Shown here: positions 1,276-64,000 of the stretch, in pieces
Numbering within the stretch: the first letter of the stretch is position 1
Layout of the letters: each line of letters begins with the position of its first letter
NCBI GenBank assembly: GCA_944388045.1
Contig: CALXHG010000004.1
Location: 1-64,000 of the forward strand
Reading direction: 5' to 3'
Length of the DNA stretch: 64,000 nt
Source of the DNA: an uncultured Clostridia bacterium
GTDB taxonomy: Bacteria; Bacillota; Clostridia; TANB77; CAG-508
The notes under the pieces: generated by a model
The model's database searches: none
Seen by the model: the letters and a program-made list of their open reading frames with translations, nothing else
What the model was told of the DNA's origin: nothing
Position numbers and translations under genes: made by a program

Positions 1276-1322
1276 GGAAAGGAGAGTATGATTAGTTAAA
1301 TTTATCATACATAAAAAATATG
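1276..1322 (+). promoter_or_regulatory. SD-hairpin-AUG start region with three-codon decoy ORF
   Basis: The only strong Shine-Dalgarno (AAAGGAG, 1278-1284) lies about 35 bases before the ATG at 1320. Between them is an inverted repeat, GTATGAT (1286-1292) and ATCATAC (1304-1310), with an 11-base loop. Inside the 5' arm an ATG at 1288 opens a mini-ORF, ATG ATT AGT TAA. Folding the hairpin leaves about 10 bases between SD and ATG, a normal spacing. The same layout occurs before nusB, the prepilin peptidase gene and pilC. Confidence 0.6.
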
Positions 1323-2189
1323 CGTAACTTTTTAAAAGGAATAATAGTTGGAATAGGTGGAATAGCACCAGGATTAAGTGGAAGTGTATTATTAGTAATT
1401 TTAGGACTTTATCAAAAAACAATAAATGCAATAGGAACAATTTTTAAAGATTTTAAGAAAAATGTAGCTTTTTTATTTCCATTATTTTTAGGTTTTGGTG
1501 TAGGAGTAATAATATTTAGCAAAATTGTAGATTTTTTATTAGAAAATTATGAAATGTATACAAGATTCACATTTTTAGGTCTTGTTTTAGGAACAATTCC
1601 ATTATTTTATAAAGAAGTAAAAAAAGAAGGATTTAATAAAAAATATTACATAGTAATGTTAATATCTGCAATAGCAGGAATAGCACTATTTTCATTAAAT
1701 AAAGATTTATTCCCTGTAATAACAGATCCAAACTTATTCCAATCAGTATTATTAGGATTTGCAGTAGCAGGTTCATCAATTGTACCTGGAGTAGATAGTG
1801 CAGTTATATTATCAACATTAGGATTATATGAATTATATGTTGGTTCAATTGCAGACTTTAATTTAGCAATATTAATACCAGCAGCATTTGGATTAGGAAT
1901 AGGTGTATTAGTTATATCTTTCTTAATGAATAAATTATTAAGTAAATTTTATACAGTAACATTTTCTATAATATTTGGACTATTTTTATCAATAATACCA
2001 AATGTATTAAATAGTAGTTGTGTTTTAGGATTTAACATGAGTTCTGTATTTGCAATTATATTAGTAATAATTGGGTTTATATTCTCATACTTCCTTGGAG
2101 ATGTAAAAAATAATATTGCAAAAATTAAAGCACTTACAAAAAAAGTAAAAAGGTTAAAAGAGAATAATAATACAGATAATGTAAATTAA
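1320..2189 (+). CDS. DUF368 membrane protein, probable undecaprenyl-phosphate flippase (PopT family)
   Basis: This 289-residue polytopic membrane protein has the DUF368 signature GIGGIAPGLSGS near the N-terminus (residues 12-23). A related half-repeat, AGSSIVPGVDSA, appears near residues 150-161, as expected for an internally duplicated transporter. DUF368 proteins have been reported to move undecaprenyl phosphate back across the cytoplasmic membrane, recycling the lipid carrier for wall polymers. Hydrophobic segments fill most of the protein, and the last 30 residues are lysine-rich and cytoplasmic-looking. ATG 1320 is chosen because an in-frame TAG at 1293 blocks longer ATG starts; its ribosome-binding site is displaced by a hairpin. 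A lost base in the leader, giving a longer N-terminus, cannot be excluded. The next gene makes polyprenyl diphosphates, a related pathway. Confidence 0.8.
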   Translation: MRNFLKGIIVGIGGIAPGLSGSVLLVILGLYQKTINAIGTIFKDFKKNVAFLFPLFLGFGVGVIIFSKIVDFLLENYEMYTRFTFLGLVLGTIPLFYKEVKKEGFNKKYYIVMLISAIAGIALFSLNKDLFPVITDPNLFQSVLLGFAVAGSSIVPGVDSAVILSTLGLYELYVGSIADFNLAILIPAAFGLGIGVLVISFLMNKLLSKFYTVTFSIIFGLFLSIIPNVLNSSCVLGFNMSSVFAIILVIIGFIFSYFLGDVKNNIAKIKALTKKVKRLKENNNTDNVN

Positions 2190-6752: not shown

Positions 6753-6797
6753 CAAAAAGGGACCGACCCCAATGACGTTGGGGTCGGTCCCTTTTTG
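6753..6797. repeat. Single GGGGTCGGTCCC palindrome (P1)
   Basis: CAAAAAGGGACCGACCCCAA (6753-6772) and its exact complement (6778-6797) flank the five-base loop TGACG, giving a perfect 20-base stem. The right side ends in CCCTTTTTGTGCCTTTTTGTG, so it could also terminate transcription. It is the minimal form of the repeat found at 37.6, 43.9, 45.3 and 52.1 kb. The rest of the 6616-6921 gap holds only the yunB terminator. Confidence 0.85.
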
Positions 6798-10595: not shown

Positions 10596-10634
10596 AGGTT
10601 TATAGGTATATCCTTTATAAAAAACCTAAATTAA
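10596..10634 (+). promoter_or_regulatory. Conserved AGGTTTATAGG leader hairpin, copy 1
   Basis: AGGTTTATAGG, loop TATAT, CC, then TTTATAAAAAACCT can fold as a hairpin closed by AGGTTT/AAACCT, followed by AAATT. A second copy with the same core and same loop length (TAAAT) lies at 40274-40307. Both stand shortly upstream of a small gene of unknown function, so this may be a shared RNA control element. Confidence 0.5.
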
Positions 10635-20985: not shown

Positions 20986-21024
20986 GAAGGGAGAATGTTA
21001 GTAAAACTAACATATAAAAAAATG
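20986..21024 (+). promoter_or_regulatory. SD-hairpin-AUG start region of nusB
   Basis: AAGGGAG (20987-20993) is followed after one base by ATGTTAG (20995-21001), loop TAAAA and CTAACAT (21007-21013), then eight bases and ATG 21022. Folding leaves nine bases between SD and start codon. The ATG in the 5' arm is in frame with nusB and would add nine residues, but it stands only one base from the SD. It is the cleanest of four such leaders in the window. Confidence 0.65.
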
Positions 21025-21426
21025 AAAAGATCAGCAATTAGAGAACTTGCATTCAAATTAATTTATAGTATAGAACTTCAAAAAGCAGAAGATATTGATG
21101 AACAAATAGAATTATATTTTGAATGTGAAAATATAGTGGAAAATGATGCAAAAGAATATATAATAGATGCAATAAAAGGTATAAATGAACATAAAGAAGA
21201 AATTAATGAACTAATTAGAAAAAATCTAAAAGCTGACTGGTCTTTAGAAAGAATTTCTAAAATAGATTATAGTATATTAAAACTTGCTATTTATGAAATT
21301 AAATATAAAGAAATTCCATTTAAAGTTGCAATTAATGAAGCTTTAGAAATAGCTAAAAAATATGGAGAAGCAACTTCCAAAAACTTTGTAAATGGTATAT
21401 TAGCAAGTATTGTTAAAGAACAATAA
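21022..21426 (+). CDS. nusB: Transcription antitermination factor NusB
   Basis: The helical protein (134 residues from ATG 21022) binds boxA RNA with S10 during rRNA antitermination. The family N-terminus is [17 protein letters not shown]; the C-terminal signature is [16 protein letters not shown] (about residues 82-97), with [17 protein letters not shown] and FVNGILASI after it. I place the start at 21022, since MKRSAIRE aligns with typical NusB beginnings. The upstream in-frame ATG at 20995 adds MLVKLTYKK and lies in a hairpin. It is followed by xseA, the order seen in Bacillus apart from missing folD. Confidence 0.93.
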
Positions 21427-37570: not shown

Positions 37571-37741
37571 TTTGGGGTCGGTCCTTTTTCGTGTTGGGGT
37601 CGGTCCCTTTTTGTGTTGGGGTCGGTCCCTTTTTGTGTTAGGGTCGGTCCCTTTTTCGTGTTGGGACCGACCCTAACACAAAAAGGGACCGACCCTAACA
37701 CAAAAAGGGACCGACCCCAACACAAAAAGGGACCGACCCCA
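37571..37741. repeat. 170-bp GGGGTCGGTCCC palindrome array (P2)
   Basis: Four forward units (GGGGTCGGTCCCTTTTTGTG and close variants, spaced 22-23 bases) are followed by four inverted units, giving one long near-perfect palindrome. It begins seven bases after the ftsL stop and ends seven bases before the stop of the convergent HD-GYP gene. The T-runs in both directions make it a likely bidirectional terminator. It has no core like P3-P5. Confidence 0.9.
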
Positions 37742-40273: not shown

Positions 40274-40307
40274 AGGTTTATAGGTAAATCCATAAAACCT
40301 AAATTTT
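40274..40307 (+). promoter_or_regulatory. Conserved AGGTTTATAGG leader hairpin, copy 2
   Basis: AGGTTTATAGG, loop TAAAT, CC, ATAAAACCT and AAATT repeat the plan of the element at 10596-10634. It lies 19 bases before the start of the small membrane protein gene at 40326. Shared sequence covers both stem and flank, so chance similarity is less likely. Confidence 0.5.
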
Positions 40308-43892: not shown

Positions 43893-44257
43893 TTGGGGTC
43901 GGTTTCTTTTTCGTCTGGGGTGGCTACTGGGGTCGGTCCCTTTTTGTGCTTGTCGTTGGCTACTGGGGTCGGTCCCTTTTTTGATTGGGGTCGGTCCTAA
44001 ATCATACCATTATATAATTGTTTTTTATACCTTGTGTGACGCAACCTACAAAAGAATTTTAATATGTAGGTTGCTCCAAATCGCATTCGCTCCGCTCATT
44101 TGGTCGCTTACGCGGTATTACAAAATACTTTATATATTGGTATGATTTAGGACCGACCCCCATCAAAAAAGGGACCGACCCCAGTAGCCAACGACAAGCA
44201 CAAAAAGGGACCGACCCCAGTAGCCAACAACAAGCACAAAAAGAAACTAACCCCAGC
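43893..44257. repeat. GGGGTCGGTCCC palindromic element with core (P3, chimeric)
   Basis: Inverted arms made of GGGGTCGGTCCC units and GGCTACT linkers flank a core at 43998-44149. The core has outer ends TAAATCATACC/GGTATGATTTA, a hairpin CAACCTAC/GTAGGTTG (44041-44074) and a second, CCAAAT/ATTTGG (44077-44103). Its left core arm (ATTATATAATTG) is of the P5 type and its right arm (ACTTTATATATTGG) complements the P4 left arm, so the two no longer pair fully. The element fills the gap between the convergent gpr and ytxC genes. There is no transposase. Confidence 0.85.
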
Positions 44258-45326: not shown

Positions 45327-45658
45327 GTTTGACTTTGCTAGGGGTGGCTATTGGGGTTGATCCCTTTTTTGGCTGGGGTCGGTCCCTTTTTGTGCTGGGG
45401 TCGGTCCTAAATCATACCAATATATAAAGTATTTTTTATACCTTGTGTGACGCAACCTACAAAAGAATTTTAATATGTAGGTTGCTCCAAATCGCATTCG
45501 CTCCGCTCATTTGGTCGCTTACGAGGTATTACAAAATACTTTATATAATGGTATGATTTAGGACCGACCCCAACAACAAAAGGGACCGACCCCAGCACAA
45601 AAAGGGACCGACCCCAACAACAAAAAGGACCGACCCTAATAGCAAGGGTCGACCCAAA
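45327..45658. repeat. GGGGTCGGTCCC palindromic element with core (P4)
   Basis: The same plan as P3: inverted GGTCGGTCC arms and a core at 45408-45560 with the CAACCTAC/GTAGGTTG and CCAAAT/ATTTGG hairpins. Both core arms carry the AAAGTATTTT version and pair with each other. The right end stops about ten bases from the stop codon of the GH57 gene. The remaining 45124-45326 stretch is AT-rich with no feature that I can support. Confidence 0.85.
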
Positions 45659-52065: not shown

Positions 52066-52394
52066 ATTAGGGTCGGTCCTTTTTGGCTGGGGGTTGGCTA
52101 CTGGGGTCGGTCCCTTTTTCGTTTGGGGTCGGTCCTAAATCATATCATTATATAATTGTTTTTTATACCTTGTGTGTCGCAACCTATAAAAGAATTTTAA
52201 TATGTAGGTTGCTCCAAATCGCATTCGCTTCGCTCATTTGGTCGCTTACGCGGTATTGCAAAACAATTATATAATGGTATGATTTAGGACCGACCCCAAA
52301 CGAAAAAGGGACCGACCCCAGTAGCCAACGCCAAGCACAAAAAGGGACCGACCCCAGTAGCCAACCCCCAGCCAAAAAGGACCGACCCTAATAA
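52066..52394. repeat. GGGGTCGGTCCC palindromic element with core (P5)
   Basis: This has the same architecture as P3 and P4, with the core at 52136-52286. Both core arms carry the AATTGTTTT version (ATTATATAATTG and CAATTATATAAT) and pair with each other. The CAACCTAT/GTAGGTTG and CCAAAT/ATTTGG hairpins carry a few substitutions relative to P4. It fills the gap between the convergent guaB and spoVAE genes, four bases after one stop and twelve before the other. Small ORFs inside it are by-products of the repeat. Confidence 0.85.
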
Positions 52395-58538: not shown

Positions 58539-59144
58539 ATGAAAAAAAATCAATATGGTGTAACATTAATTTCATTAGTTGTTACAATAGTAGTTATGTT
58601 AATAATTGCAGGAGCTGCAATTGCAACTTTAGGAGGAGACAATGGTATTATTACAAATGCTCAAAGATCTAGAGCAGGAACTTCAGAAGCAGAAGTAGTT
58701 GAAAAAATTGGTATGGCATACAATAATATAAGATCAAAAGCATCATCAAATATGGCAATAGAAGTTGGATACAAACCATCTGTTCATGTTGAAGAATATT
58801 TAGATGGAATTAAATCAGATATTGGAGCAGATGATGTAAACATTATAGAAACAGATCCAGATGGTGATTTAAAAGCTGATCCAGAAGATTTTGCAGAAGG
58901 AAAATACAATGTATATATAGATTATACAACTGCAAATAAACCTGTAATTGTAATTGTTTATACAGATGCTACATTCTATCAACCAGTTCCAACAAGTGCA
59001 ACAACATATCCAGTTGCAACAACAGCTACTACAGTAGAATATCCAATAGATAACCAATATGCTATATTAGTAGCTCAAATTGAGTTTACAACAAGTTCTG
59101 TAAAATATGTAGAACCAATAAAAACAGTATTAAAAACTAACTAA
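58539..59144 (+). CDS. Major pilin candidate
   Basis: The 201-residue protein has the leader MKKNQYG and the mature N-terminus VTLISLVVTIVVMLIIAGAA, with serine at position +5 where classical type IV pilins have glutamate. The globular domain (about residues 55-200) contains proline/threonine-rich loops (PVPTSATTYPVATTATT). Its end, LVAQIEFTTSSVKYVEPIK, parallels that of the preceding pseudopilin, indicating duplication. GAAAGGATT precedes the ATG and a terminator follows, as usual for an abundantly made subunit. Confidence 0.8.
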   Translation: MKKNQYGVTLISLVVTIVVMLIIAGAAIATLGGDNGIITNAQRSRAGTSEAEVVEKIGMAYNNIRSKASSNMAIEVGYKPSVHVEEYLDGIKSDIGADDVNIIETDPDGDLKADPEDFAEGKYNVYIDYTTANKPVIVIVYTDATFYQPVPTSATTYPVATTATTVEYPIDNQYAILVAQIEFTTSSVKYVEPIKTVLKTN

Positions 59145-59152
59145 TTTAGACA

Positions 59153-59185
59153 TCAGGCATATACAAATTAAGTATATGCCTGAAT
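59153..59185 (+). terminator. Hairpin after the major pilin gene
   Basis: TCAGGCATATAC (59153-59164) and GTATATGCCTGA (59172-59183) form a perfect 12-base stem with a seven-base loop. The weak T-run suggests partial termination, which would leave less message for the downstream genes than for the pilin. Confidence 0.7.
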
Positions 59186-59222
59186 TAATACTAAATATTT
59201 AAAATAATAAATATACTAAAAA

Positions 59223-59266
59223 TAGGGGGTATGTTAGCTTAATAAAGTTAACAGAACAAAAAAATG
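59223..59266 (+). promoter_or_regulatory. SD-hairpin-AUG start region of the prepilin peptidase gene
   Basis: AGGGGGT (59224-59230) abuts ATGTTAGC; TGTTAGC (59232-59238) pairs with GTTAACA (59247-59253) with one G-U pair, and ATG 59264 follows ten bases later. The ATG in the 5' arm opens ATG TTA GCT TAA, a three-codon mini-ORF. Folding brings the SD to about 12 bases from the start. Confidence 0.6.
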
Positions 59267-60067
59267 AACATATTATTATATGCAATAATCTTTATTAGTG
59301 GAGCTATGTTTGGAAGTTTTTATACATTAGCAGTATATAGAATACCAAAAAATATTGATATTGTAAAAAAACACTCATATTGTCCTAATTGTAATCATAA
59401 ATTAGGAATATTTGACTTAATTCCAATAGTTAGCTATATATTTTTAGGTGGAAAATGTAGATATTGTAAACAAAAAATAAGACCAAGATATTTAATAATA
59501 GAAATAATTAGTGGAATAATGTTTATTCTTCTTGCCAATTTATTAAAAATAAATGTATATACATTAAATTTGCAAAAAATTATATTATTTGGATTTATGA
59601 TATTATATTTTACAGCTGTTATTTTAATTTCCGCAATAGATAAAGAATATAAGGTTATTAATAAAAAGGTTCTTGCATATGGAATAATCATATCTCTTAT
59701 GTATATGATATATCTATACATAATAGAACCTACTAGTATTTATAGATATGCTATATATTTAGCTATATATATTATTTTAATGTCCACAGATACATTTTTA
59801 CTTAGAAAATATGCTGATGAGAATTATTTAATAAATTTAGATTTATTTTTGACTGTTATAATAATGTTTGTAGATTATAAAATTTCATTAATAATATTTA
59901 CTCTTTTTGTAATAGAAATTTTAATTCATATTACAATTAGAAAGATTACTAAATCTAAAACAGGAAATAAACCAATAAAAATTGATGAATTTCCTTTAGG
60001 GTTTTATTTGGGAGCAAGTAACATTATAACTATATTTACAATAAGTATAATAAACTTATTTATTTAG
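59264..60067 (+). CDS. Prepilin peptidase (PilD, A24 family)
   Basis: The 267-residue polytopic aspartic protease has the N-terminal zinc/cysteine domain CPNC...CRYC (residues about 43-70) and the first catalytic aspartate in SAIDKEYKVINKKV (about 125-138). The second catalytic aspartate, normally in GxGD, is not in canonical context; D in LINLDLFLTV (about 190-199) is the best candidate. It should remove the short leaders of the pilins encoded on either side and may methylate them. Its start region has the hairpin leader described above. Confidence 0.88.
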   Translation: MNILLYAIIFISGAMFGSFYTLAVYRIPKNIDIVKKHSYCPNCNHKLGIFDLIPIVSYIFLGGKCRYCKQKIRPRYLIIEIISGIMFILLANLLKINVYTLNLQKIILFGFMILYFTAVILISAIDKEYKVINKKVLAYGIIISLMYMIYLYIIEPTSIYRYAIYLAIYIILMSTDTFLLRKYADENYLINLDLFLTVIIMFVDYKISLIIFTLFVIEILIHITIRKITKSKTGNKPIKIDEFPLGFYLGASNIITIFTISIINLFI

Positions 60068-63392: not shown

Positions 63393-63437
63393 TGAAAGGA
63401 GAAAATGTTAGTTTTTACTAATATTTAGAATACTATG
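63393..63437 (+). promoter_or_regulatory. SD-hairpin-AUG start region of pilC
   Basis: AAAGGAG (63395-63401) precedes ATGTTAGT (63405-63412), loop TTTT and ACTAATAT (63417-63424), an eight-base stem with one G-U pair. ATG 63435 follows ten bases later. The ATG in the 5' arm opens a seven-codon mini-ORF ending in TAG. Linear SD-ATG distance is 33 bases; folded it is about 13. Confidence 0.6.
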
Positions 63438-64000
63438 GCAATATTTGTATATAAAGGTATAACTGACAAAGGATTAATTGTAAAAAATAGAGTTGAAGAA
63501 GAAAGTAAACAAAAATTAATGGAAAGACTTAAAGAAAATAAAATTACACCAATTGACATTGTAAAAGTAAGTATAGCTTCTTCAAATAAAAATAAAAAAA
63601 GAAAAAATATTAATAATTCAAAAGACATATTAAAAGATGTTAATACTGCAAAATTTACAACAGCAAAAAAAAATCAGAGTAAAATACAAAACAATAGAAC
63701 AATAGAAAGAATTTCTATGTACTTAGAAGCAACTAAGAAAATAACAACAAAAGATGTAATTGTATTTACACAAAACTTCTATTTACTAAAAAAAGCGAAT
63801 TTTAATAATATACATGCATTAACAACAATAATAGAGTGTACAGAAAATTTGTCTTTTAAGGGTATATTAGAAGATATTTTAGCAGGTCTTGAAGCTGGAC
63901 AATTTATGTATACAACAATGGAATACTATTCAAATGTTTTTCCATTTATATATATAAATATGGTTAAAGTTGGAGAACTTTCTGGTTCATTAACAACTTC
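63435..64000 (+). CDS. pilC: Type IV pilus inner-membrane platform protein PilC, partial
   Basis: The open frame runs from ATG 63435 to the window edge (188 complete codons) without a stop. It starts MAIFVYKGITDKGLIVKNRV, has a lysine/asparagine-rich insert (about residues 50-85) and then the GspF domain: VIVFTQNFYLLKKA, LEDILAGLEAGQFMYTTMEY, and MVKVGELSGSL at the edge. PilC/GspF anchors the motor ATPases. The gene completes the pilB-pilT-pilC set. Confidence 0.9.
   Translation, partial: MAIFVYKGITDKGLIVKNRVEEESKQKLMERLKENKITPIDIVKVSIASSNKNKKRKNINNSKDILKDVNTAKFTTAKKNQSKIQNNRTIERISMYLEATKKITTKDVIVFTQNFYLLKKANFNNIHALTTIIECTENLSFKGILEDILAGLEAGQFMYTTMEYYSNVFPFIYINMVKVGELSGSLTT

Follow-up and report, generated by a model that had tools for sequence, protein, structure and literature searches.

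Four genes on the forward strand of the 64,000-nt stretch of DNA analysed here (the window) are preceded by leaders of one common layout. They encode a DUF368 family/PopT-like polyprenyl-phosphate transporter (1320..2189; start 9 nt 3' of the hairpin), NusB (21022..21426; 8 nt 3'), a protein that the original prediction called a prepilin peptidase (59264..60067; 10 nt 3') and a PilC/GspF family protein whose gene extends beyond the window end (63435..64000; 8 nt 3'). The nusB assignment lies over the family cut-off (TIGR01951, E=7e-37), the DUF368 product matches NCBIfam PopT under the curated cut-off (E=1.5e-30), the pilC product matches GspF/PilC models under theirs (E=1e-52 to 1e-37), and the family search returned no NCBIfam match for the gene at 59264..60067. 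Homologs of NusB and of the prepilin peptidase were matched in 58/59 and 52/59 genomes, respectively; in the majority of both, and in the closest PopT/DUF368 homologs, the alignment begins at residue 1, which is why we take the post-hairpin ATGs to be the real starts. Behind a related leader, IF-1 homologs likewise have their residue 1 at the ATG that follows the hairpin.

On inspection of the sequence, all four leaders consist of a strong SD, 1–2 nt, a hairpin with a stem of 7–10 bp, 8–10 mostly A-rich nt and the AUG, which lies 28–35 nt from the SD core, as the original prediction had described. Before the DUF368 gene, the core GGAG (1281..1284, within GGAAAGGAG) is followed in the SD/start gap by GTATGAT-11 nt-ATCATAC (1286..1310; predicted fold −6.1 kcal/mol), a stem outside the ATGTTAG class. 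The other gaps hold ATGTTAGT-AAA-ACTAACAT at nusB (core GGAG, 20990..20993; hairpin 20995..21013, −6.5 kcal/mol), TGTTAGCTT-AATA-AAGTTAACA with one G-U pair at the prepilin peptidase gene (core GGGGG, 59225..59229; hairpin 59232..59253, −8.5 kcal/mol) and AAATGTTAGT-TTTT-ACTAATATTT, also with one G-U pair, at pilC (core GGAG in GAAAGGAG, 63398..63401; hairpin 63403..63426, −7.6 kcal/mol); all lie on the forward strand. In the predicted folds of all four, SD and AUG are unpaired and about 9–12 nt stay unpaired between them, which agrees with the proposal that folding would restore a workable SD-AUG distance. These leaders do not fit the usual design of a thermometer, because the SD is free rather than sequestered in the predicted fold. 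No Rfam family reached its gathering score in the window, and at 59100-59330 there were chance-level matches only.

Leaders of this geometry are far more frequent in the genome than chance would give. With mechanical gene calls, the gap between GGAG and the first ATG, measured over 900 ORFs, peaks at 5–10 nt, is nearly empty at 14–23 nt and shows a second bump at ~24–43 nt. Of 116 genes whose sole SD lies at 19–46 nt, 13 reached a hairpin score (the analysis's own measure) of at least 18, vs 0.13 expected from dinucleotide shuffles; at score 14 the numbers were 19 vs 1.9. In the congener G166, the same comparison over 43 far-SD genes gave 7 vs 0.08 (score at least 18) and 14 vs 0.45 (score 14), rates biased upward since this genome was picked for its many pattern matches and match-bearing stretches were fetched deliberately. 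Across 3-kb ortholog loci of congeners not picked for hairpins, 3 vs 0.40 were found at score 14 (one of the 3 being the window's own leader), so hairpin density is lower in most species; three genera belonging to other families of the order (about 265 kb) yielded no far-SD leader at score 14. The far-SD stems of the window's own genome are often unrelated to one another (TAAGTTAGCTC, AAGTTATATTTA, TATAGTTTTTTC, TATGGATAA and others), so the geometry recurs as well as the sequence. Outside the window (contig C4 of the own genome, ~103435-108138), three neighbouring fatty-acid-synthesis-like genes, judged by eye to be fabZ-, accC- and fabI-like, have SD-hairpin-AUG leaders with unrelated stems.

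The sequence-similar family that the original prediction proposed is larger than claimed. The pattern GGAG-N1-7-TGTTAG-N2-8-CTAACA has about 106 matches in 49 of 211 congeneric genomes, vs 2 for a reversed pattern, 9 for swapped arms (three in one genome) and 3 for scrambled arms in the same scan, and the search for further copies with a simple pattern added two cases in the own genome to those of the window. When a stricter pattern was run against 84,980 species, about 75 of 80 loci among the matches listed belonged to uncultured Clostridia or Clostridium MAGs; those listed in Paenibacillus, Calothrix, Prolixibacteraceae, Bacillus and Serratia show no gene start past the hairpin and look like chance. 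Two more matches (L183 and L317) were set aside as coding, since in both a long ORF truly begins at the arm ATG. Among the distinct matches read, a gene start lies 3' of the hairpin in 86/96, loops span 4–8 nt (8 being the pattern's upper bound), and the distances are mostly 3–5 nt from GGAG to TGTTAG and 9–13 nt from CTAACA to the start. The SD lies >20 nt from the AUG (23–39 nt in nearly all fetched leaders), and SD and start are mostly unpaired in the predicted folds. The extended SD GAAAGGAG is found in 43/72 AAGGAG hairpin leaders vs 19/122 normal AAGGAG leaders, the normal set coming from the own genome only.

The genes behind these leaders are varied: 82 leaders precede 64 different protein families, mostly housekeeping, including infA (IF-1), nusB, frr (ribosome recycling factor), def (peptide deformylase), mutL, rnc (RNase III) and relA/spoT. 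This breadth argues against a regulon-type reading of the shared switch that had been suggested. A role for the arm ATGs as decoys fares no better. In the window, they do open short frames as predicted (3, 3 and 7 codons, with the nusB ATG in frame), and an arm ATG stands in most TGTTAG-class hairpins, 66/82 of the frames terminating before the gene start, as would be expected if ribosomes started at the arm ATG, translated a mini-ORF and reinitiated at the gene. We nevertheless regard such leader-peptide reinitiation as highly improbable: the 82 arm ATGs fall in the three frames 33/28/21, with 7 fused in frame, they lie only about 1–5 nt from GGAG vs 5–10 nt in normal genes, and many geometrically equal hairpins of the own genome contain no ATG at all.

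Position is specific, with 12 of 14 TGTTAG/CTAACA palindromes lying within SD-AUG gaps (own genome 3/4, G166 9/10). A REP or mobile palindrome spread through intergenic DNA does not match this distribution. That a small mobile or duplicated palindrome is merely tolerated in the gap would suit its patchiness among relatives and the dominance of one stem class, but seems very improbable to us given that copies are nearly missing outside SD-AUG gaps, loops and flanks have diverged and the same slot holds unrelated stems. Scarcely credible is the notion that TGTTAG-Nx-CTAACA is a repressor site in the DNA overlapping the leaders by accident. The same half-sites, mostly with N6 (N5–7), do occur upstream of a DtxR/MntR-like regulator gene in many congeners, but the leaders combine spacers of 4–8 nt with a fixed SD/AUG slot, some G-U pairs and an extended SD, and share their geometry with non-TGTTAG stems; a DtxR/MntR-type operator with fixed half-site spacing at promoters was likewise rejected, the leader spacers being variable and lying between SD and AUG. 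At the regulator gene itself (L265, L274-L276, L280, L281, L287, L288), TGTTAG-N5-7-CTAACA lies between promoter-like sequence and the SD, and is likely an autoregulatory DNA operator that shares the hairpin half-sites.

Comparison among orthologs bears out one part of the original expectation of compensatory stem changes: pairs are preserved in homologs that have the hairpin, but most congener orthologs have normal SD spacing and no hairpin, from which it follows that no gene requires one. In a match-selected sample, the hairpin is common to 38/104 ortholog pairs at ≥80% identity and to 4–8% below that identity. Wherever stems are shared between orthologs, pairing is retained. Specifically, the 59223 leader reads TGTTAGCTTAATAAAGTTAACA here and TGTTAGCTTATAAGCTAACA in the sister species G099, where the hairpin TGTTAGCT-TATA-AGCTAACA occupies the same site as that at 59232..59253 and differs by a G-U to G-C change and a loop indel; an outer pair is T-A in G166 vs C-G in L339, and the outer pairs of the MANN gene leaders compared are A-T, G-C and G-U. 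At four IF-1 loci, the stem is constant while loops and linkers vary. Over the leaders of the TGTTAG/CTAACA pattern, pairing beyond the core is enriched at outer position −2 (59% vs 43% permuted) and marginally at inner +1, and outer −3 and inner +2 pairs are not enriched over permuted ones; covariation within the core is little testable, as the search pattern itself fixed it. Where stems are not shared, they differ entirely, e.g., TAAGTCCT/AGGGCTTA here and ATGTTAG/CTAACAT in G009 for CtpA-like orthologs, or the quite different stems of the orthologous genes at L316 and on C2 of the own genome; independent gain accounts for such cases as well as replacement does.

From geometry, recurrence and predicted folds, we conclude that the window leaders are probably split (accommodated) translation initiation regions, in which the hairpin folds away extra spacer. 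The ribosome would pair with the SD, often in its extended form (GAAAGGAG), and an AUG at 25–38 nt would be too far for initiation unless the RNA were folded; a local hairpin 1–4 nt past the SD would fold the surplus away, leaving about 9–14 nt unpaired, a distance compatible with initiation. Formation of the hairpin in vivo, and a gain in initiation at the real AUG from its folding, are inferences on our part. Spacing alone leaves the recurrence of one stem sequence and orientation unexplained, and the recurrence of ATGTTAG/CTAACAT, mostly in one orientation, plus the extended SD imply a preference beyond spacing, with ribosome contact, folding kinetics or a trans-acting factor as possible candidates. 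In one congener, G143, three SD-proximal hairpins have the swapped arms CTAACA..TGTTAG (C2:38422, C18:17584, C32:6989) and none has the usual orientation, so stems may be lineage-specific.

The same recurrence of stem sequence and orientation on unrelated genes is what would be expected if the hairpin were primarily a site for a trans-acting factor (an RNA-binding protein, an RNase or a small RNA) modulating the translation or decay of numerous mRNAs, with bridging a secondary matter. Retention of the stem in orthologs with altered loops and linkers (the infA group, mutL) and an SD-adjacent position that fits a roadblock or cleavage site point the same way. Against it, many leaders have the same geometry with unrelated stems, loop sequence and length are free, the downstream genes form no obvious regulon and no candidate factor was found, and we judge this reading unlikely. 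A genus-specific post-transcriptional system is a speculation that we entertain with some doubt: the SD-AUGUUAG/CUAACAU module would be read by a factor of its own or by a ribosome feature peculiar to the lineage, dozens of housekeeping genes in each genome would have their translation set in this way, and modules would be gained and lost rapidly between species. Our preferred reading remains the accommodated initiation region.

Several other features were noted. A second leader element, AAGGTTTATAGGTAAAtCCTT..TAAAAACCTAAAT, lies at 10599-10630 (+) and 40277-40303 (+) of the window and has 36 copies in the 1.57 Mb of the own genome, immediately 5' of the SD at unrelated genes (which look clpC-, cysS-, fab-cluster-, def-, mutL- and mfd-like by eye). 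With a P1 of AAGG/CCTT that varies in step and a P2 of TAGGT/ACCTA, it looks like an H-type pseudoknot resembling PreQ1-I, against which it scores 11.3 bits (gathering score 39). In the own genome, orthologs of four hairpin-leader genes have this element (4/48 vs 7/302, p=0.05), but the signal for swapping between hairpin and pseudoknot-like leaders is too weak to claim. A strong palindrome, CAGGCATATAC..GTATATGCCTG, lies at 59155-59182, just past the gene upstream of the prepilin peptidase gene; congeners carry GCCATACGCACAC..GTGTGTATGGC and other stems at this site, so the pairing is kept, and it is perhaps a terminator or processing hairpin within a pilus operon. The motif GGGGTCGGT, in GGGGTCGGTCCCTTTTTGTG contexts, forms many tandem and inverted copies at 6770-6780, 37574-37740, 43895-44218, 45375-45615 and 52103-52355. 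Outside the window (G000, contig C3:81697, +), a 1109-aa ORF for a UvrD/PcrA-like helicase, apparently with an intein-like insertion (CLVGDTEIQT...YFANNICVHNC), also has an SD-hairpin-AUG leader.

An arrangement described chiefly for two genes of phage T4 thus appears to be common among the leaders of one bacterial lineage, a genus of uncultured gut Clostridia. Bacterial gene finders and RBS calculators rest on SD-AUG spacing rules that roughly 1.5–4.5% of the examined genes here would break, with wrong starts or weak RBS scores as possible consequences, and the many natural variants allow structured spacers, extended SDs and stem sequence to be tested as influences on initiation. Our literature search, which left most subscription journals outside it, found no description of a bacterial family of such leaders.

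Among known systems, REP palindromes are similarly short, recurrent and present in several copies per genome; they are extragenic repeats, whereas the copies here vary in their loops and seldom lie outside SD-AUG gaps (PMC3733652). The split ribosome binding site of E. coli thrS, as far as it is described where cited in PMC3936740, also places structured RNA between ribosome contact regions, but with large upstream structures and standby regions rather than a hairpin of 6–12 bp between SD and AUG. The closest parallels are T4 genes 38 and 25, in which SD and AUG are brought closer by folding (from 22 to 5 nt in gene 38, from 27 to 11 nt in gene 25) and hairpin-destabilising mutations lower initiation, the gene 25 arrangement being confined to close T-even phages (PMC3014915). 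Like these, the leaders here have a far SD (22–27 nt in T4, with 5–11 nt restored by folding), a hairpin confined between SD and AUG, an SD and AUG that are unpaired in the predicted folds, and pairing kept among hairpin-bearing relatives. Unlike these single phage genes, they stand before many unrelated chromosomal genes of a bacterial genus, and they add a recurrent stem sequence and, often, an extended SD.
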